From: Chloroflexota bacterium
GTDB taxonomy: Bacteria > Chloroflexota > UBA6077 > FW602-bin22 > JAMCYS01
Direction of reading: 5' to 3'
Length of the DNA stretch: 64,000 nt
Assembly (NCBI GenBank): GCA_023473795.1
Contig: JAMCYS010000098.1
Span: forward strand, 1-64,000
The notes below the pieces were generated by a model. The model was not told the origin of the DNA. It ran no database searches and saw only the letters and a program-made list of their open reading frames with translations. The translations under genes were made by a program, and so were the position numbers. Positions 22,300 to 32,873 of the stretch are shown piece by piece (within the stretch, counting starts at the first letter, position 1; each line of letters begins with the position of its first letter).

Positions 22300-22724
22300 A
22301 TTTGTCCTCCCCACGCCCAATGGTGCTCTTCGGCACCCTGGTAGCTCCGGGCGATATCGCCGCCCACAGCCGGCCGCGGCGCTATTATGCCCTAAGGCCT
22401 CCCCTGGAACAAGCGCCCGCCTCTCACCGGCAAGAAAGGGGTCCCACGCCCTTTACTCCTCGGGCGCGGCCCGGACTGTCGCCCGCCTGCGCTGCCCCTG
22501 ACATCCGTGCATAACTCGCCGTTCAGGTCGTAGGGGCCGGACTCCGTGCCGGCCCCGTGACTGAGCGGGCCCTGAGGGGCCCAGGCGGGCGGGTACAGAG
22601 CCCCGCCCCTACGGGTTTGTGCACGGATGTCAGGCTGCCCCGGTTGACTGCCGCCGCGCCGGGTGCTAGTATCCTGTCAAGCACTCATTCGCCCGTCCTA
22701 GCCCCCTTCGCCGGAGGTTCGCCC
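22300..22724. other. Gap between divergent MFS and restriction-methylation genes
   Basis: About 425 bp without a gene. It holds the promoters of both flanking genes and the palindromic element at 22497-22634. Confidence 0.5.
22497..22634. repeat. Interrupted palindromic element
   Basis: Outer 15-bp perfect inverted repeats (22497-22511 and 22620-22634, core CATCCGTGCA) enclose a second pair (22529-22537 and 22605-22613, CGTAGGGGC and its complement). The interior is very GC-rich. It resembles small non-coding palindromic elements; related TAGGGGC-containing elements occur at 44676 and 63934. Confidence 0.6.
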
Positions 22725-25700
22725 GTGGCCGTCAAGGATGCCGAGCTGGACCGCGATACCCTCATCAAAGGCTGGGCCGCCAAGCTGCAGGCCAAACTGG
22801 TGGAGGTCGTGCCCAATAGGCCCGTGGAGGCCGACTTCCGCCACGCCATCGAGCCGCTCCTCGACGAGTTCTGCGCCGCCGTCGAGGTCAAGCCACTTAG
22901 CCACGCCGAGTACTCCGTGGCCTCCGGCCGCATCGACGCCATCTTCAACCGCCTGATCGTGGAGTACAAGCGCCCCGGCGTGCTCAAGCCCGTCCAGGAC
23001 GCGGCCACCAAAGCCGCCATTGCCCAGGCGGACGGCTACGTCAGGGACATCGCCAGGAAGGAACGCCACCAGCTGAGCCGCCTGGCCGCGGTGGTCTGCG
23101 ATGGCCAGCACCTGGTCTTTATCCGCTACAGCAACGACAAGCCCCTGCAAGAGGGGCCACTGCCGATCAACGACGCCTCGCTGGCGCGCTTTCTCACCTG
23201 GCTGAGCGGCCTCTCCTCCGGCGTCGCCCTCACCGCCGAGAACCTGAACCGCGACTTCGCCATCGAGCAGCCGCGCACGCAAAACGTGCTGCGCGGCCTC
23301 TACCAGGGTTTGAGCCGGGCTCTGGCCGGGCAGGAGAACATCGTCCACAAGCTCTTCGAACAGTGGCGGCTGTTCTTCGGCGAGTCCATCGACTACTCGG
23401 AGGCCTTCGGCGGGCGCAAGCTGGAGCCGCTCAAGCAGTGGGCGCGCAAGTCGGGGCTCACTATCAATACGTCCGAGGAGGCGGAGCGCTTCTTTTTTGC
23501 CCTGCACACCTATTTCGCCCTGCTGACCAAGCTGCTGGCCTGGCTGGCCCTCTCGCGCCACCTGGCGACGAAGTTAGGGGCGCCGTCCTTCGCCGAGCTC
23601 GCCTCGCTGGACATCGTCTCGCTGCGCCAGAAGCTGCGCGACATGGAGAATGGGGGCATCTTCCGCCAGTACGGCATCGCCAATCTGCTGGAAGGCGATT
23701 TCTTCCTCTGGTATACGCACGTGCTGGACACGGGCATGGAGGCGGCCATTCACGACCTGCTCGCCCGTCTGGATGAGTACGACCCGACGACGCTGAGCAT
23801 CAAGCCCGAGGAGACGCGCGACCTCTTCAAGAAGCTCTACCACTACCTGCTGCCGCGCGAGGTGCGCCACAACCTGGGCGAGTACTACACGCCCGACTGG
23901 CTGGCCCAGCGCCTGCTGAACCAAATGGACAACGAGTTCTTCACGGCCAACCCCACGGGGCCGGCCGGGGGTGCTCTGCGGCGCAAGCTGCTGACGCTGC
24001 GCTGGCTCGACCCCGCCTGCGGTTCCGGCACCTTCCCCGTTCTGGTCATCGCCCGCCTGCGCGCCCTGGGCGCGGCGTTGATGGTGGACCAGCGCCAGCT
24101 GCTGGAGGCGATTCTGCGCAACGTAGTCGGCTTCGACCTCAACCCGCTGGCCGTGCTCACCTCGCGGGTGAACTACGTCCTCCAGATCGCCGACCTGCTC
24201 GAATACCGCAAGTCCGAGATCACCATCCCGGTCTATCCGGCGGACTCGGTGCGCCTGCCTAGCGAGGGCAGCGACATCTTCGGTAAGGGGGCCTACGAGT
24301 TCCCCACCGCCGTGGGCAAGTTCGCCATCCCCGCGGCACTCTGCACCCCGTCGCGCTTTCCGAACTTTTGCCAACTGCTCGAGCAGAACATCGAGGCCGG
24401 CATCGCCGACTCGGCCTTCCTGGCGCACGTCGGCAACCGTTTGGGGCTGGGGCAGGGCGAGTGGGACGAGCAGGCGCGCCAACGGGCGGGGGAGGCCTAC
24501 CGCCAGCTGGCGGAGCTGCACCGCCAGGGCCTGAACGGCCTTTGGGCGCGCCTCTTGGAGAACAACTTCGCTCCGCTCACCGTGGGCCAGTTCGACTACG
24601 TCGTCGGCAACCCACCCTGGATCAACTGGGAGAGCTTGCCGGACGGCTATCGCGACGAGATCAAGCCGATCTGGCAGCGCTACGGCCTGTTCCCGCACGG
24701 TGGCATGGACACGATTCTCGGTAAAGGGAAGAAGGAGATCGCCACGCTGATGACCTACGTGATGGCGGACCGGCTCCTCCGGGACGGCGGTAGACTGGGT
24801 TTCGTCATCACGCAGACTGTATTCAAGACCTCGGGCGCCTCCCAGGGCTTTCGCCGTTTCCGCATTCCTCAAGGTGAGGGCAAGGACGATCCCCTGCGAG
24901 TCGTGCACGTAGACGACCTCACGGCCATCAACCCTTTCGAGGGCGCCACCAACCGCACGGCGGTGGTCGTTCTGGAAAAGGGCAGACCTACGACCTACCC
25001 TGTTCCCTATACCCTCTGGAACAAGCGGTCTAGCGGTCGGCTCACGTACGAAAGCGTTCTTGCGGATGTCATCGCGGTGACCCAGCGCACCAACTTGGGC
25101 GCAGAGCCGGTAGAAGCCGGTGACTTCACAGCCGCCTGGATCACGGGCAGACCCCGAGCCCTGAAGGCGCTGAAGAAGGTGCAAAGGCCTTCCGAGTACG
25201 TTGCCCACGCCGGTTCCTACAGCGGCGGGGCGAACGGCGTCTACTGGCTAGAGGAGACCTACCACCGCCCCGATGGACTGGTCGTTGTGCGTAACTTGAC
25301 TGAGGGGGCAAAGGTGTCCGTCCCTGCCACGACTGAGGCATTGGAAGAGGGGCTGCTCTACCCGCTGCTACGCGGCCGCGACGTCAAGCGCTGGCGGTGC
25401 GCCTCTTCGGCGCTGATCTTGTTGGCTCAGGACCCGGACAAGCGAGAAGGCGTAGACCCAGAGGTCATGCAGAGCGACTACCCCCGCACTGCGGGCTATC
25501 TGGAACGGTTTGCGGACACACTACGGGCTCGGGCCGCCTTCAAGCGCTACTACACGCGCAAAGACAATCGCGGGCGAGTGATAGAGACCGCGCCTTTCTA
25601 CTCCATGTTCAACATCGGCCGCTATACGCTCGCCCCCTGGAAGGTTGTCTGGCGGGAGGTAGCAAGCTCGCTGGACGCAGCGGTAGTGGGCGTGGTAAAT

Positions 25701-26105
25701 GCGAAGCCTGTCATCCCTGACCACACGATCATCATGGTGGACTGTCCAACCCAGCAAGAGGCCCACTATCTGTGCGCGGCGCTCAACTCTAGCCCCGCCA
25801 AGTTAGCGGTGGAGTCTTACATCGTACTCCACCCCGACCCACACATTCTGGAGCACGTCGGCATTCCCAAGTTCGACCTGGGGAACCCTCTACACCAGCG
25901 CCTGGCCGAGCTCTCGGCCCAGGCCCATGCCGCCACCCAAGCGGGCGACACGGCCGGCTTGGCTGTCCTGGAGGTGGAGGTGGACCGCGCAGCCGGCCAA
26001 CTGTGGGGGCTGAGCGACGAGGAGCTGCGGGAGATACAGCGCGGCCTGGTGGAGCTGGGCGGGGGCGCCTCGGCCGCCGCGCCGGGCGAGGACGCTGAGG
26101 GATGA
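22725..26105 (+). CDS. Single-polypeptide restriction-methylation enzyme (Type IIG/IIL-like)
   Basis: About 1126 residues. Near residues 68-82 a PD-(D/E)XK-like nuclease site is visible (GRIDAIFNRLIVEYKRPG, with E80-x-K82). An N6-adenine methyltransferase core follows, with the SAM motif DPACGSGTF near residue 429, a second SAM-side segment VVGFDLNPLAVLTSR, and the catalytic NPPW near residue 629. The last ~400 residues would form the target recognition region and helical spacer. Nuclease, methylase and specificity in one chain is the Type IIG/IIL plan. The start GTG at 22725 has GGAGG eight bases upstream; the frame is open further up but lacks homology. Target site cannot be read from sequence. 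It opens a defence cluster with the Phd/VapC pair. Confidence 0.8.
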   Translation: MAVKDAELDRDTLIKGWAAKLQAKLVEVVPNRPVEADFRHAIEPLLDEFCAAVEVKPLSHAEYSVASGRIDAIFNRLIVEYKRPGVLKPVQDAATKAAIAQADGYVRDIARKERHQLSRLAAVVCDGQHLVFIRYSNDKPLQEGPLPINDASLARFLTWLSGLSSGVALTAENLNRDFAIEQPRTQNVLRGLYQGLSRALAGQENIVHKLFEQWRLFFGESIDYSEAFGGRKLEPLKQWARKSGLTINTSEEAERFFFALHTYFALLTKLLAWLALSRHLATKLGAPSFAELASLDIVSLRQKLRDMENGGIFRQYGIANLLEGDFFLWYTHVLDTGMEAAIHDLLARLDEYDPTTLSIKPEETRDLFKKLYHYLLPREVRHNLGEYYTPDWLAQRLLNQMDNEFFTANPTGPAGGALRRKLLTLRWLDPACGSGTFPVLVIARLRALGAALMVDQRQLLEAILRNVVGFDLNPLAVLTSRVNYVLQIADLLEYRKSEITIPVYPADSVRLPSEGSDIFGKGAYEFPTAVGKFAIPAALCTPSRFPNFCQLLEQNIEAGIADSAFLAHVGNRLGLGQGEWDEQARQRAGEAYRQLAELHRQGLNGLWARLLENNFAPLTVGQFDYVVGNPPWINWESLPDGYRDEIKPIWQRYGLFPHGGMDTILGKGKKEIATLMTYVMADRLLRDGGRLGFVITQTVFKTSGASQGFRRFRIPQGEGKDDPLRVVHVDDLTAINPFEGATNRTAVVVLEKGRPTTYPVPYTLWNKRSSGRLTYESVLADVIAVTQRTNLGAEPVEAGDFTAAWITGRPRALKALKKVQRPSEYVAHAGSYSGGANGVYWLEETYHRPDGLVVVRNLTEGAKVSVPATTEALEEGLLYPLLRGRDVKRWRCASSALILLAQDPDKREGVDPEVMQSDYPRTAGYLERFADTLRARAAFKRYYTRKDNRGRVIETAPFYSMFNIGRYTLAPWKVVWREVASSLDAAVVGVVNAKPVIPDHTIIMVDCPTQQEAHYLCAALNSSPAKLAVESYIVLHPDPHILEHVGIPKFDLGNPLHQRLAELSAQAHAATQAGDTAGLAVLEVEVDRAAGQLWGLSDEELREIQRGLVELGGGASAAAPGEDAEG

Positions 26106-26178: not shown

Positions 26179-26197
26179 GTAGATCAAGGTGAGTAGC

Positions 26198-26440
26198 ATG
26201 CGCTGGCAAGTGCAGGAGGCCAAGCAGAAGTTCAGCGAGCTGGTCCAGAGGGCCGTGGAGGAAGGGCCGCAGGTGGTCACCCGCCACGGCGAGGGCGTGG
26301 CCGTGGTCGTCTCCATCGACGAATACCGCCGGCTCACCGGCGACAAGCCCGACTTTGCCAAGTTCTTGCTGTCGGCGCCCGACTGGGAGGCGCTCGACTT
26401 GGAGCGGGCCAAGGATAAGCCACGGGACGTAGCGGTGTGA
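26198..26440 (+). CDS. Phd/YefM family antitoxin
   Basis: An 80-residue antitoxin. The N-terminal DNA-binding domain has the typical start MRWQVQEAKQKFSELV and the segment GPQVVTRHGEGVAVVVSIDE; the acidic/basic C-terminal tail would bind the toxin. ATG at 26198 has AAGGTGA upstream, preferred over the GTG three codons before. Its stop overlaps the toxin start by four bases (GTGA), so the two are translationally coupled. It should repress its own promoter at the palindrome 26166-26178. Confidence 0.9.
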   Translation: MRWQVQEAKQKFSELVQRAVEEGPQVVTRHGEGVAVVVSIDEYRRLTGDKPDFAKFLLSAPDWEALDLERAKDKPRDVAV

Positions 26441-26856
26441 GCTTCCTGATCGACACCAACGTCATCTCCGAGGCCCGCAAGCCGCGCGGGAATCCCCAGG
26501 TTAAGGCCTGGCTAACGCGAATCCGGGGTGAGGACCTCTACATCAGCGTCCTCCTGCTGGGCGAGCTACGGCGAGGCATCGCGCTGCTGGCCGGGCGCGA
26601 TCCCGAACAGGCCGCCGTCTATGAGCGGTGGCTAACCCGGCTGCGTCGTGATTATGCCGACCGCATCCTGCCGGTGAGCGCCCCCGTGGCCGAGGAGTGG
26701 GGCCGACTGAATGTGCCCGATCCCCTACCGGTGGTCGATGGCCTGCTGGCCGCCACCGCCAAGGTGCACGACCTGACGCTCGTCACCCGCAACACCACTG
26801 GTTTCGCGCGTACGGGGGTGCGCTTGCTGAACCCGTTCGCGGGCGATTCATCCTAG
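26437..26856 (+). CDS. vapC: VapC-type PIN-domain toxin (FitB-like)
   Basis: A 139-residue PIN-domain ribonuclease toxin. The acidic residues of the active site are visible: D in FLIDTNVISE, E in LLLGELRRG, D in LPVVDGLLAATA and the late acidic/Asn region VTRNTTGF. It starts at GTG 26437, overlapping the antitoxin stop. The LIDTNV...SE start and the VVDGLLAATA motif place it in the FitB-like branch. With Phd it forms a type II toxin-antitoxin pair that cleaves RNA when the antitoxin is degraded. Confidence 0.92.
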   Translation: MSFLIDTNVISEARKPRGNPQVKAWLTRIRGEDLYISVLLLGELRRGIALLAGRDPEQAAVYERWLTRLRRDYADRILPVSAPVAEEWGRLNVPDPLPVVDGLLAATAKVHDLTLVTRNTTGFARTGVRLLNPFAGDSS

Positions 26857-27530: not shown

Positions 27531-28214
27531 CTACAGCCGGGCCGTCTTGTTGACGTTCATCTCCTCCATGCGGCCGGTGACGAGGAAGACGACCCGCTCG
27601 CAGATGTTGGTCACCCGGTCCGCCATGCGCTCCAGATTGTGCGCCGCCCAGAGCAGCAGGGTGGCCCGCTGGATAGTGCGCGGGTCTTCGATCATAAACG
27701 TCAGCAGTTCGTGGTAGATCTGGTTGTATAGTGCGTCGACCTCGTCGTCCTCGGCGCTGATCTTTTTCGCCGCCTCCACGTCGCGGGCGATGAACGCGTC
27801 GAGCGAGCGCTGCAACATGTCGCGGGCCCGCTCGCCCATGCGGGGAATGTCGATGAGCGGCTTCAGCAGTGGTTCCTCGCCGTGCATGAGCGCGATCTTG
27901 CAGTTGCCCTCGGCGTGATCGGCCATCCGCTCGAGATCGGTGATGATGTTGAGGATCGCCGCCAACACCCGCAGGTCGCTCGCCAAAGGCTGCTGGCGGG
28001 CGATGAGCTGCAGGCACTTCTCCTCGACCTCGAAGCGCTTGCGGTTGATTTCGAGGTCCTCCAGAATCAGGCGCCGGGCCAGCTCGCCGTTGCGCGTGCG
28101 TAGAGCCTCGATAGACTGGTCGATGGCTCGGTCCACCATCTTACCCAGGGTCAGCATCTCGTCCTGCAAGTCAGCCAACTGTCGGTCGAACGAAGCCCTT
28201 GACACCTGCTTCAC
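27531..28214 (-). CDS. phoU: Phosphate signalling complex protein PhoU
   Basis: A 227-residue all-alpha protein with two PhoU repeats; the first contains LEINRKRFEVEEKCLQLIAR and the second EVDALYNQIYHELLTF, each with the E/D-rich metal-binding helix. PhoU connects the Pst transporter to the phosphate two-component system and limits uptake when phosphate is high. The start is GTG at 28214 after CGAGGG. It is the last gene of the pst operon; the cognate histidine kinase and response regulator are not in this window. Confidence 0.93.
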   Translation of the reverse strand: MKQVSRASFDRQLADLQDEMLTLGKMVDRAIDQSIEALRTRNGELARRLILEDLEINRKRFEVEEKCLQLIARQQPLASDLRVLAAILNIITDLERMADHAEGNCKIALMHGEEPLLKPLIDIPRMGERARDMLQRSLDAFIARDVEAAKKISAEDDEVDALYNQIYHELLTFMIEDPRTIQRATLLLWAAHNLERMADRVTNICERVVFLVTGRMEEMNVNKTARL

Positions 28215-28319: not shown

Positions 28320-28793
28320 CTACCGCTTGGGCAGACGGGCGTGGTCAACCCCGTCGATCGCCCGCGGCGTGATCTCGACCAAGACGAAGTCCTGTTTCTC
28401 GAAGTCCTCTTGCCGCAACAGCGGGGCCTTGCCCTCGGGATCGTACTTGGCCACCAGCGCCCGCATGGCGGCCAAGCTCAAGTCGGGATCGCCGACTATC
28501 TTCGCCGTGCCCTCAAGCATGGCGCTGTAGTAGTGGGTGGTGAAGGTACAGGCCTTGCCCGTGGCGATGATTACCGCCTCGTCGTCGGCCTGGAACGAAA
28601 CCCTGGGGTTGGCGGCGATGTTTTCCAACTTGCGCCCGCGGGGCACGCTGTGGAAGTAAATCTTGTCCTGGAAGTACACGAACGTCAGCGGCACCGCATA
28701 GGGAACGCCGTCGCGGCAGGTGCCCAAATGGCCGACCTGCGCCTTGTGGAAGATCTCCCGGCAGCGCTCCGCCGGCAGTTGTCCGTGAGCCAT
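28320..28793 (-). CDS. Pyridoxamine 5'-phosphate oxidase-family (FMN-binding split-barrel) protein
   Basis: A 157-residue split-barrel flavin-binding protein of the PPOX class, starting MAHGQLPAERCREIFHKA. The segments VGHLGTCRDGVPYAVPLTFV and KIYFHSVPRGRKLENI are typical of FMN/heme-type members of this family. ATG at 28793 has GGAGAGGGAG upstream. Its place inside the pst operon, between pstB2 and phoU with a 26-bp gap after pstB2, is odd; no link with phosphate uptake is known to me. The substrate cannot be read. Confidence 0.8.
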   Translation of the reverse strand: MAHGQLPAERCREIFHKAQVGHLGTCRDGVPYAVPLTFVYFQDKIYFHSVPRGRKLENIAANPRVSFQADDEAVIIATGKACTFTTHYYSAMLEGTAKIVGDPDLSLAAMRALVAKYDPEGKAPLLRQEDFEKQDFVLVEITPRAIDGVDHARLPKR

Positions 28794-28819: not shown

Positions 28820-29587
28820 TTAGCCAAAGCGGCCGGTAATATAGTCCTCCGTCCGCTTATCGCGCGGACGGGTGAAGACCTCCGTCTCCGTGCCGAACTC
28901 CACCAGCTCGCCCATCAGGAAGAACGCGGCCCTATCGGCGATGCGCGCCGCCTGCTGCACGTTGTGGGGCGAGATGACGATGGTGTAGAAGCGCTTCAGT
29001 TCGCGCAGCGATTCCTCGATCTTGGCGGTGGAGATCGGGTCCAAGCCCGAGGTCGGCTCGTCCAGCAGGATCACCTCCGGCTGCAGGGCCAGCACGCGGG
29101 CGATGCTGAGCCGCTGCTGCTGGCCGCCGGAGAGGCCCAAACCGGAGGTGCTGAGCCTGTCCTTGACTTCGTCCCACATCGCCGCCGTGCGCAACGCCCG
29201 CTCCACCGTCTCCTCGAGCCGGCGACGGTCGCGCACGCCCATCAGGCGCGGGCCGTAGGCGACGTTGTCGAAGATGGACATCGGCAGTGCCACCGGCAGG
29301 TCGAAGACCATGCCGACCCGCCGGCGCAGGTCGATCACGGGATAGCCCGGACTGTAGATGCTCTCGCCCTCCAGGAAGACGTCCCCGGTAACGCGCGCCA
29401 GCGGGTTGAGGTCATTCAAACGGTTGAGGGTGCGCAGGAGCGAGGTCTTGCCGCCGCCGGCCGGCCCGAACACCGTCAGGATCTCGTTGGCGACGATCGG
29501 CAGGCTGACGTTGCGCAGGGCGACCTGCTCTCCGTAGTACACGGAGACGTTCTCCACCTGCATCTTGACCCCGCCGCTTTCCGCCAT
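28820..29587 (-). CDS. pstB: PstB paralogue 2, phosphate ABC transporter ATPase with altered Q-loop
   Basis: 255 residues, a full ABC ATPase of the PstB type. Walker A is GPAGGGKT (41-48), the signature is canonical LSGGQQQR, and Walker B with catalytic Glu reads VILLDEPTSGLDP. Two departures stand out: the Q-loop Gln is replaced by Asp (GMVFDLPVALPMS, residue 96) where PstB normally has FQ(R/K)PNPFP, and the H-loop reads SPHNVQQ rather than THNMQQ, keeping the His. ATG at 29587 follows AGGGGGAACG. It lies nine bases after the pstA stop. It probably pairs with PstB1 at 32118, which has the opposite defect. Confidence 0.88.
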   Translation of the reverse strand: MAESGGVKMQVENVSVYYGEQVALRNVSLPIVANEILTVFGPAGGGKTSLLRTLNRLNDLNPLARVTGDVFLEGESIYSPGYPVIDLRRRVGMVFDLPVALPMSIFDNVAYGPRLMGVRDRRRLEETVERALRTAAMWDEVKDRLSTSGLGLSGGQQQRLSIARVLALQPEVILLDEPTSGLDPISTAKIEESLRELKRFYTIVISPHNVQQAARIADRAAFFLMGELVEFGTETEVFTRPRDKRTEDYITGRFG

Positions 29588-29595
29588 CGTTCCCC

Positions 29596-30438
29596 CTACT
29601 GTTCTGCCCGCAGCACCAGCCGGTTCATGAGCCAGTTGGCCGCCAGATTAACCAGGAGCACGGAGATAATCAAGAGGGCGCCCGTGCCGTAAGCCATTTC
29701 GAGCGAGATGCCCTCCCGCGCCAGGATGTAGAAATGCACCGACATCGTGCGCGCCGGCGAGAAGAGGGAGGTTGGCACCCGCAGCGAGGAGCCGGCGGTG
29801 AGGATCACCGCCGCCGTCTCGCCGACGCTGCGCCCGATCGCCAGAATGACGCCCGTGATGATGCCCGGCAAGGCCGAGGGCAGCACTACCCGCGTTACCG
29901 TCTGCCAGCGGCTGGCACCCAGGGCGAAGCTAACCTGCCGGTAGGAGGGCGGCACGGCCCGGATCGCCTCCTCGGCGGTGCGAATGATGGTCGGCAGCAC
30001 CATCGCCGCCAGGGTGAGTCCACCTGAGAGGATCGACCAGCCCAGGCCCAGGAAGATCACGAAGAAAGCGAAGCCGAAGAGGCCGAAGATGATCGAAGGC
30101 ACCCCGGAAAGGCTCTCGGTGCCGAAGCGGATCAGCCTCGTGGCCCGACCCTCGCGCGTGTACTCGGTGAGGAAGACGGCCGTGCCTATGCCCAAGGGCG
30201 TGGCGATGGCGATGGCCACCGCCGTGAGAAACACCGTGCCGACGATGGTGGGGAAAATGCCCCCCTCGCGGCCCATTTGCTCGGGCGAGTCCAAGAGGAA
30301 CCCCGGGCTCAGCACCGGCAGGCCGCGCTGCAGGATGTAGATCAGTATGAAGATCAGCACTGCCAGGGTCAGCAGGGCCGCTCCCCAAAGCAGCGCTTTG
30401 GCGATGGCCTCGCTACGCTTACGGCCGATGGCGATCAC
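29596..30438 (-). CDS. pstA: Phosphate ABC transporter permease PstA
   Basis: A 280-residue inner-membrane permease with about six helices. The ABC-permease EAA-type loop is visible in SYRQVSFALGASRWQTVTRV followed by VLPSALPGIITG. It forms the membrane channel with PstC. The N-terminal helix (LLWGAALLTLAVLIFILIYIL) and the LGIGTAVFLTEYTREG segment are typical of PstA. It starts nine bases after pstC and is followed after eight bases by pstB2, so all are one operon. Confidence 0.95.
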   Translation of the reverse strand: MIAIGRKRSEAIAKALLWGAALLTLAVLIFILIYILQRGLPVLSPGFLLDSPEQMGREGGIFPTIVGTVFLTAVAIAIATPLGIGTAVFLTEYTREGRATRLIRFGTESLSGVPSIIFGLFGFAFFVIFLGLGWSILSGGLTLAAMVLPTIIRTAEEAIRAVPPSYRQVSFALGASRWQTVTRVVLPSALPGIITGVILAIGRSVGETAAVILTAGSSLRVPTSLFSPARTMSVHFYILAREGISLEMAYGTGALLIISVLLVNLAANWLMNRLVLRAEQ

Positions 30439-30447
30439 GAGCTAGCC

Positions 30448-31317
30448 CTACCTCCGGGAGGTGATGAGATTGGCAGTGCCGGTCAGGATCATGATGATCA
30501 GAAAGAGAACGATGCCGGTGGCGAAGAGCGCCGCCCGGTGGTCGCCGCTGGCGTAGGCCATCTCGATGCCGATGTTCGTCGTCAGCGTGCGGGCGGGGTC
30601 CAGTATCGAATCCGGGATTTGCACGGCGTTGCCCAGCACCATGATGACGGCCATCGTCTCGCCGACGGCTCGGCCCATGCCCAGCACCACCGCCGCCACG
30701 ATGCCCGAGCGCGCCGCCGGCAGCAACACCCGCCAGATGGTCTGCCAGTGGCTGGCACCCAGCGAAAATGAGGCTTCCTTGTAGGAGCGGGGCAGCGCTC
30801 GCAGGGCATCCTCGGAGATGGCGATCACCGTCGGCAGGATCATGATTCCCAGAATGATGGCCCCGGCGAGTATGCTGAGGCCCGGGCCGCCCAGGGTGTT
30901 GCGAATGAACGGCACGAGCGTGGTCAGGCCCCAGAAGCCGTAAATTACCGAGGGAATCCCCGCCAGCAGCTGGATGGCCGGGCGCAGGGCAGCCGCCACG
31001 CTGCGCGGCGCCAGTTCCACGAGGAAGACCGCGCAAGACAGTCCGAGCGGCACTCCCAGCACCAGCGCCCCCAGGGTCACGTATACCGAGCCCAGGATCA
31101 TCGGCATAATGCCAAAGGCGTTGGCGCTGGGCGCCCAGCGCCCGCCGGTAAGGAACTCGCCGATGCCGAGATTGAGCATCACCGGCAGGCCCTCGCGCAG
31201 GATGAAAACCGTGATCAGCGCCAGCACGGAGAGAGACGAGAAAGCGATCAAAGCCAGGCCACGAGTGATGGCCCTCTCCGCGACCTCGGTCTGGGACACG
31301 CGCAGCTTCTTGTTCAT
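30448..31317 (-). CDS. pstC: Phosphate ABC transporter permease PstC
   Basis: A 289-residue inner-membrane permease. The EAA-type loop reads LPRSYKEASFSLGASHWQTI; the segments GVPLGLSCAVFLVELAPRSV and LLAGIPSVIYGFWGL are characteristic of PstC. Its ATG overlaps the pstS stop (ATGA), showing translational coupling. With PstA it forms the transmembrane pore for phosphate. Confidence 0.95.
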   Translation of the reverse strand: MNKKLRVSQTEVAERAITRGLALIAFSSLSVLALITVFILREGLPVMLNLGIGEFLTGGRWAPSANAFGIMPMILGSVYVTLGALVLGVPLGLSCAVFLVELAPRSVAAALRPAIQLLAGIPSVIYGFWGLTTLVPFIRNTLGGPGLSILAGAIILGIMILPTVIAISEDALRALPRSYKEASFSLGASHWQTIWRVLLPAARSGIVAAVVLGMGRAVGETMAVIMVLGNAVQIPDSILDPARTLTTNIGIEMAYASGDHRAALFATGIVLFLIIMILTGTANLITSRR

Positions 31318-32117
31318 TTCTTTGCCGGCACCAGGCCCTCCGAGACCAACAACTGCTGGCCTTCCGGGCTGAGAGTGTACTTGATGAAGCTTTCGGCTGC
31401 CGCGCTTTGGGGACCTTTTTGCACGAACAAGAAGGGCCGCTTCAGGGCATAGCTGCCGTCGACCACGTTCTCGTGCGTGGGCGGCACTTTGCCCACGCTC
31501 ACCGGCTTGACCTGCTCGTTGACCAAGCCGAGTGAGATGTAGCCGATGGCGTTGGGGTCGTCCGCGACTACCTGGCGCACCGCTCCGTTGGAGTCCTGCA
31601 CTATGGAGCCCGGATTGATGTCGGACTTGCCCATCACCAGTTCCTGGAAAGCGCCCCGCGTGCCCGAGCCCTCTTCGCGAGTAACGGCGTGGATTGGCTT
31701 GTCGGGACCGCCCACCGCTCGCCAGTTGGTGACCTGGCCGGAGAAGATCTGCCGCGTTTGCTCCAGGCTCAGCGCGCCGACAGGGTTACTGGGATGAACG
31801 ACCACGGCGATGGCGTCCTGGGCGATGACCGTTTCCACCAGCTGCGCTTGCTCGTCCGGCTTCAGCTCGCGCGAGGACATGCCTATCTCGGCGGCGCCGG
31901 TGAGCGCGGCCTGGATGCCCGCGGTCGAGCCGCCGCCCTGCACGTTGATCACCGCGCTGGGGTGCTGGCGCATGTACTCCTCCGCCAGCGCCTCCGCGAA
32001 GGGTTGCACCGACGTCGAGCCGGCGACGGTCACTCCGCCCTGGGCCCGGGCGCAGCCCAAGAGCAGGGGCAGCGCGGCCAGCAATGCGGCCGCCAGCGCC
32101 AGCAACCTCTGTGTCAT
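31314..32117 (-). CDS. pstS: Phosphate-binding lipoprotein PstS
   Basis: 267 residues. The signal peptide (MTQRLLALAAALLAALPLLL) ends in a lipobox LLGC, so the protein is anchored by a lipid outside the membrane. The mature part begins VTVAGSTSVQPFAEALAEEY and carries the phosphate-binding loops GGGSTAGIQ and SREEGSGTRGAF-like TREEGSGTRGAF. It delivers phosphate to PstCA. It starts immediately after the pstB1 stop and overlaps pstC by four bases. Confidence 0.95.
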   Translation of the reverse strand: MTQRLLALAAALLAALPLLLGCARAQGGVTVAGSTSVQPFAEALAEEYMRQHPSAVINVQGGGSTAGIQAALTGAAEIGMSSRELKPDEQAQLVETVIAQDAIAVVVHPSNPVGALSLEQTRQIFSGQVTNWRAVGGPDKPIHAVTREEGSGTRGAFQELVMGKSDINPGSIVQDSNGAVRQVVADDPNAIGYISLGLVNEQVKPVSVGKVPPTHENVVDGSYALKRPFLFVQKGPQSAAAESFIKYTLSPEGQQLLVSEGLVPAKK

Positions 32118-32873
32118 CTAACCGAACCGGCCGGTGATGTAGTCTTCAGTGCGTTTGTCCTTGGGCCGCGTGAAGATATCGTTCGTCGGCCCGAACTCGA
32201 CCAACTCGCCGTGCAAGAAGAAGCCGGTGCGGTCGGAGGTCCGCGCCGCCTGCTGCATGTTGTGGGTGACGATGATTATGGTGTAGTCGGGCTTCAGCGC
32301 CTGCATCAGTTCCTCGATGGCTAGGGTGGCGATGGGGTCCAGCGCCGAGGCCGGCTCGTCCATCAGGATCACTTCCGAGCCTACCGCCAGGGTGCGGGCG
32401 ATGCAAAGGCGCTGCTGCTGGCCCAGGGCGAGGTCCAGCGCCGATTGGCCCAGCTTGTCCTTGACCTCTTCCCAGAGGGCGGCCCCGCGCAGGCTCCGCT
32501 CGATTAGAAGACGCAAGTCCGTCTTGCGATCCATCCCCAGCACCCGCGGCCCGTAAGCGACGTTGTCGAAGATGGATTGCGGGAACGGGTTGGGCCTCTG
32601 GAAGACCATGCCCACGCGCTGGCGCAGCTCGACCACGTCGGTGGTTGGCGCCAGCACGTTATTGCCCGCGAGGACTACTTCGCCAGTGGCCCGGGCGCTG
32701 GGGATGAGGTCGTTCATGCGGTTGAGCGTGCGCAGAAAGGTGGACTTGCCGCAGCCCGAGGGGCCAATGAGCGCGGTGATCTCGTGTTCGTAGATAGTGA
32801 CGTTGATATCGTGTAGGACGTGGTTGTTGCCATAATAGAAGTTGAGGTCCCGCACCTCGATTTTGCCTGCCAA
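32118..32873 (-). CDS. pstB: PstB paralogue 1, phosphate ABC transporter ATPase with degenerate signature motif
   Basis: 251 residues from a TTG start at 32873 preceded by GGGGGGCAGC. Walker A (GPSGCGKS, 37-44), Q-loop ([12 protein letters not shown]92), Walker B with Glu ([13 protein letters not shown]) and H-loop (THNMQQ) are all canonical for PstB. The ABC signature, however, is LALGQ (148-152) instead of LSGGQ: the Ser that contacts the ATP gamma phosphate and the first Gly are lost. It is the first gene of the pst operon, directly followed by pstS. In a homodimer both ATP sites would be impaired; with PstB2 one site would be complete. Confidence 0.9.

Follow-up and report, generated by a model that had tools for sequence, protein, structure and literature searches.

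What kind of ATPase drives a phosphate importer whose operon encodes two PstB proteins, each altered in a motif that the other has kept? The question is raised by a locus in the window, that is, the whole stretch of 64,000 nucleotides of Chloroflexota DNA analysed here. In ABC dimers, each nucleotide site is built from the Walker A, Walker B, Q-loop and H-loop motifs of one subunit and from the signature of the other (PMC7756269), and the first-pass annotation had proposed that a heterodimer of the two proteins, PstB1 and PstB2, would unite the good halves in a consensus site and the altered halves in a degenerate one. Both genes, here called pstB-alpha and pstB-beta, lie where that annotation had placed them, on the minus strand, in a compact operon with the order pstB-alpha, pstS, pstC, pstA, pstB-beta, a NimA-like gene and phoU. 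The features of the operon are the following:

32118..32873, minus strand: pstB-alpha (PstB1 of the first-pass annotation), TTG start, TIGR00972 at 385.8 bits
32598..32600, minus strand: Q-loop Gln of alpha, intact; Gln in 58/58 alpha representatives
32418..32432, minus strand: ABC signature of alpha, degenerate (LALGQ) and predicted to lie opposite the nucleotide of beta
31314..32117, minus strand: pstS, phosphate-binding protein, TIGR02136
30448..31317, minus strand: pstC, permease, TIGR02138 at 294.6 bits
29596..30438, minus strand: pstA, permease, TIGR00974 at 286.5 bits
28820..29587, minus strand: pstB-beta (PstB2 of the first-pass annotation), TIGR00972 at 343.7 bits against a cut-off of 343.2
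29300..29302, minus strand: Q-loop residue Asp96 of beta (GAC), Gln lost; Ala in 49, Asp in 7, Ser in 4 and Gln in 0 of 60 beta representatives
29120..29134, minus strand: canonical LSGGQ of beta, present in 60/60 beta representatives and predicted to complete the site of alpha
28964..28966, minus strand: H-loop His208 of beta, retained in the window; Asn in 52/79 unique betas
28320..28793, minus strand: gene for a NimA/PPOX-like flavoprotein, placed between pstB-beta and phoU and scoring under the curated cut-off
27531..28214, minus strand: phoU, TIGR02135 at 206 bits

Curated phosphate models recognise PstS, PstC and PstA, phoU stands in the same operon, and the equivalog cut-off of TIGR00972 is cleared by alpha and barely by beta. 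Both genes are annotated as plain PstB; scores that satisfy the PstB model, in beta's case only just, explain why they have been overlooked. Both open frames are unbroken, and the window contains no N at all. No protein similar to the NimA/PPOX-like one was found in any other locus examined. On the plus strand, a Phd/YefM-like antitoxin gene is followed, with a 4-base overlap, by a PIN/VapC-like toxin gene (26189-26856), and a 1182-residue ORF (22557-26105) is akin to the DNA methyltransferase of a restriction system, both as judged by eye.

Read directly from the sequence, PstB-alpha is as first described, with normal Walker A, Q-loop, Walker B and H-loop and with LALGQ in place of the LSGGQ signature. 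The description of PstB-beta held for its intact LSGGQ, for the replacement of the Q-loop Gln by Asp96 (VFDLP) and for the H-loop context SPHN; the H-loop itself is less altered than was claimed, because His208 is retained and only the Thr before it has become Pro. The other motifs of beta are GPAGGGKTS (Walker A) and VILLDEP (Walker B), and the catalytic Glu of Walker B is kept in alpha and beta alike. With the Walker A Lys and the Walker B Asp-Glu in place, beta should still bind ATP. The two proteins are about 50% identical. An AF2 model of beta, which reached a pLDDT of 93 with 51 sequences (61 with only 4), superimposes on E. coli PstB (9k3x) with a TM score of 0.93 at 51% identity, so that beta is predicted with high confidence to be a well-formed nucleotide-binding domain (NBD). 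A homodimer of either window protein would lack the two canonical nucleotide sites of a PstB homodimer.

The first-pass annotation had suggested asking whether the paired losses are conserved, and the answer is clearly positive, as 73 distinct complementary alpha/beta pairs were found besides that of the window. They are spread over at least six phyla, namely Chloroflexota, Aminicenantes, the ‘Deltaproteobacteria’ phylum, WOR-1, Elusimicrobiota and Omnitrophota, the genomes of relatives being labelled with the taxon names of the seed loci; the phylum set of the window itself shows kinship to loci named as Chloroflexota. In every pair, alpha has Walker A, Q-loop and H-loop with a broken signature (LSLGQ, LTLEQ, LTEEQ and others), and beta has LSGGQ with the Q-loop Gln replaced by Ala, Ser or Asp and the H-loop His frequently lost. 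The 352 unique PstBs of all loci comprise 77 of alpha type, 79 of beta type and 196 canonical ones, and none of the 352 carries both losses.

The pairing is not a product of the way in which the loci were collected. A search with alpha only yielded loci from Aminicenantes (L035), the ‘Deltaproteobacteria’ (L053), WOR-1 (L081) and Chloroflexota (L045 and L068), all with broken signatures, and in L035, L053 and L081 the gene adjoining alpha is a beta with LSGGQ and without the Q-loop Gln. As alpha was the query that led to these three loci and beta turned up beside it, and as alpha neighbours later emerged from searches with beta, the association is not circular. The record of L045 ends too early to show whether a beta adjoins its alpha. 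In L068 (4065-5105) a beta is present, with a masked stretch (X) covering the Q-loop.

According to searches with a beta profile, in which the best matches alone were read and the counts are thus lower bounds, the system occurs in at least 20 of 400 genomes of Chloroflexota (the window's own included), 6 of 199 of the Aminicenantes phylum, 23 of 247 of the phylum of L053, 21 of 74 of the WOR-1 phylum, 2 of 199 of Elusimicrobiota and 7 of 237 of Omnitrophota. Among the best 30 matches in 250 genomes of Bacillota, all were canonical single PstBs and none was a beta. The pairs lie in one operon or one divergent cluster with a single pstS-pstC-pstA set, usually with phoU. In L264 and L265, where alpha has a canonical neighbour, that neighbour is the final gene of an independent canonical operon. 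The betas of L155 and L160 have no alpha inside the region examined, and a signature variant in L117 (LSGGE) has no beta nearby. Natural fusions of alpha and beta were absent from the loci examined. Canonical and asymmetric pst operons also occur back to back in a number of genomes, as in L264 (7934-16933), L274 (5134-13534) and many Chloroflexota of family f20.

Motif conservation was counted over representatives less than 90% identical to each other (58 alphas and 60 betas). No variation occurs at the predicted consensus site, which comprises Lys44, Gln93, Glu174 and His205 of alpha (58/58) together with LSGGQ of beta (60/60). On the other side, the signature of alpha drifts at position 2 (Ser, Thr or Ala), position 3 (Leu, Glu or Gly) and position 4 (Glu or Gly), and position 208 of beta is Asn in 38 and His in 22 representatives, while the Q-loop Gln is replaced in all unique betas. 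The altered signature of alpha is thus opposed by an intact one in beta, and the Walker-bearing half that would face the altered signature has itself lost Q and often H. The exception is the Walker B Asp-Glu of beta, present in 60/60 representatives, where exporters typically lose the catalytic Glu of the degenerate site. By this comparison the changes sort by composite site and not by gene, in agreement with the proposed consensus/degenerate split.

A further sign comes from position 4 of the alpha signature and the H-loop residue of beta, which belong to different proteins and to the same composite site. They match in 73/73 pairs, with Glu facing Asn in 52 and Gly facing His in 21, a perfect table that may reflect few independent events, because the sequences share ancestry and the states largely track deep clades. 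Taken together, the motif pattern strongly supports the prediction that alpha and beta form an obligate heterodimer, in which a consensus site is combined with a degenerate one.

In a tree calculated without the motif columns, beta forms one clade (SH-aLRT 84), and alpha splits in two, roughly in step with the groups of beta. The labels require 3 changes on this tree, against 58.8 in shuffles, and the distance matrices of alpha and beta are correlated (Mantel r 0.79, reached in 0/2000 permutations). The window's own order and class are otherwise without beta, which is absent from all 28 other genomes of the class, the two weaker matches there being the canonical PstBs of G003 and G009. Relatives with one normal PstB and without the altered copy, which the first-pass annotation would have counted against its reading, do exist in this class; as the pair recurs in distant phyla, they reflect a sporadic distribution. 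The host genome has a second, complete and canonical pstSCAB-phoU-phoBR operon on another contig (C152). The operon of the window is an accessory system, and one probably acquired by transfer, given that the class is otherwise without beta and the host has its canonical Pst operon.

For pstS, pstC and pstA of the window, the nearest relatives come from a different phylum (that of G401); these loci (L264 to L268) share the order alpha-S-C-A-beta-phoU and have betas much like that of the window, with Gln replaced by Asp and an H-loop VPHN or VPHS. The core of the operon was probably transferred into the window's lineage. As the order and class lack beta, transfer or multiple loss was preferred to plain vertical inheritance inside the class. 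The phoU gene, unlike pstS, pstC and pstA, is nearest to a homologue of its own order (L099, 72% identity), and the operon is a mosaic in this respect.

With these observations in place, the operon very probably encodes an asymmetric Pst-type phosphate importer, composed of PstS, PstC, PstA and a PstB-alpha/PstB-beta heterodimer, and four other explanations were weighed against it. The asymmetric transporter could import another oxyanion, as its host already owns a canonical Pst operon; with PstS, PstC and PstA passing the curated phosphate models and phoU in the cluster, this is an unlikely reading, albeit the least unlikely of the four. Beta could also be a regulatory, non-hydrolysing PstB, for instance in PhoU/PhoR signalling, that joins the complex part-time while an alpha homodimer does the work. 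Conformations of Pst do signal to PhoR (PMC5775613), and phoU, sometimes with phoBR, adjoins the asymmetric operons. Yet LSGGQ, which is kept in all 60 beta representatives, is needed only when it faces a nucleotide in trans, and the signature of alpha itself is broken in every pair. A regulatory beta is slightly less probable than the import of another oxyanion. In favour of the asymmetric importer itself, substitution of the signature Gln (Q160K) or of the catalytic Glu (E179Q) in E. coli PstB abolishes transport (PMC5775613), so that a dimer of two alphas should function poorly.

Redundancy as in the tandem PstBs of Bacillota, in which each copy can form working homodimers and one is specialised in expression level or signalling, draws on the known adjacent pstB pairs and on E. 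faecalis, whose PstB2 alone, when overexpressed, restores uptake (PMC12096839). Pairs of that type retain all motifs (PMC12096839; L042, L055 and L066), whereas here both signatures would be broken in an alpha homodimer and the Q-loop Gln would be missing altogether from a beta homodimer, and the intact halves of alpha and beta are invariant in exactly complementary fashion, all of which leaves redundancy a shade less credible again than a regulatory beta. The least weight by far, close to nil, goes to an artefact, whether from faulty assembly or sequencing or from the decay of a duplicated gene. The host assembly does consist of 170 contigs with an estimated contamination of 4.8%, but the same pattern stands in the 73 other pairs, the frames are intact, and LSGGQ and the Walker motifs of beta are invariant. 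Chance or sequencing error is ruled out by these further pairs together with the lack of doubly altered PstBs among the 352.

In the asymmetric importer that we favour, alpha and beta would form the ATPase as an obligate heterodimer. The consensus site, made of Walker A/B, Q-loop and H-loop of alpha and LSGGQ of beta, would hydrolyse one ATP per cycle, and the degenerate site, made of Walker A/B of beta without the Q-loop Gln and of the broken signature of alpha, would bind ATP with little or no hydrolysis, acting as a hinge or glue. As both the catalytic Glu and the Walker A Lys are kept, the beta site might still hydrolyse ATP, and a change in the Q-loop is not always catalytic in its effect, since a Q-loop mutation in ABCC1 has no direct link to hydrolysis (PMC7756269). 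The subfamily-specific changes carried by both the beta Q-loop and the PstA coupling helix suggest that PstA may be the docking partner of beta, and PstC that of alpha. The PstA helix has Val in 74/82 asymmetric systems as against Ala or Gly in canonical ones, with PstC unchanged, a weak hint that is confounded by phylogeny. The gain may be the use of one ATP per phosphate or a reduced idle hydrolysis, and a link to low-energy lifestyles is offered as speculation.

The wider reading is held with less assurance, although it seems to us somewhat better than even. According to it, the alpha/beta systems would form an ancient, distinct class of Pst, found in several phyla and probably spread by transfer, in which alpha and beta, as an obligate heterodimer, would hydrolyse ATP at one site and not at the other, the latter being without the Q-loop Gln and with the catalytic Glu, and phosphate would be imported at about 1 ATP per cycle. 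As the first-pass annotation had supposed, a consensus/degenerate Pst importer, or any degenerate PstB pair, appears to be undescribed in the open-access literature, and we have encountered no description of a degenerate site that loses the Q-loop Gln and keeps the catalytic Glu. Apart from correcting the annotation, in that alpha and beta differ from ordinary PstB, the system offers a nutrient importer that exists both in a canonical, two-site form and in an asymmetric, one-site form, the two frequently sharing a genome, and whose soluble NBD subunits can be swapped. The reason why one dead ABC site persists, and the cost of an import cycle, one ATP or two, have mostly been studied in exporters.

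Among known systems, the closest is PstSCAB of E. coli (PDB 9k3x/9k3s), which shares the subunits, the operon, the PstB fold and phoU, but has a single PstB whose homodimer holds two canonical sites, unlike the two diverged PstBs of the window with their complementary losses. Tandem PstB1/PstB2 of Bacillota, such as those of E. faecalis (PMC12096839) and PstBA/PstBB of B. subtilis (PMC11466899), likewise come as two pstB genes per pst operon, with the difference that the motifs are intact in both E. faecalis copies, as in L042, L055 and L066. Such adjacent genes were called previously unstudied in 2025 (PMC12096839), and PstBA and PstBB have been modelled as a pair with no mention of a degenerate site (PMC11466899). 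Heterodimeric ABC exporters (PMC7756269) also have one full composite site and another without the signature and further residues; the window system differs from them in being an importer, in having separate soluble NBD subunits and in its degenerate site, which keeps the catalytic Glu that most exporter sites of this kind lose and has lost the Q-loop Gln instead. DppD/DppF (PMC12136057), of another substrate family, is an importer with unlike NBDs, although in E. coli the motifs of both are functional and each can hydrolyse ATP (PMC12136057). Finally, RbsA and NupO (PMC11466899) belong to importers with one degenerate site, but in these, which serve other substrate families, the NBDs are fused on a single chain and it is the Walker A Lys that has been lost.
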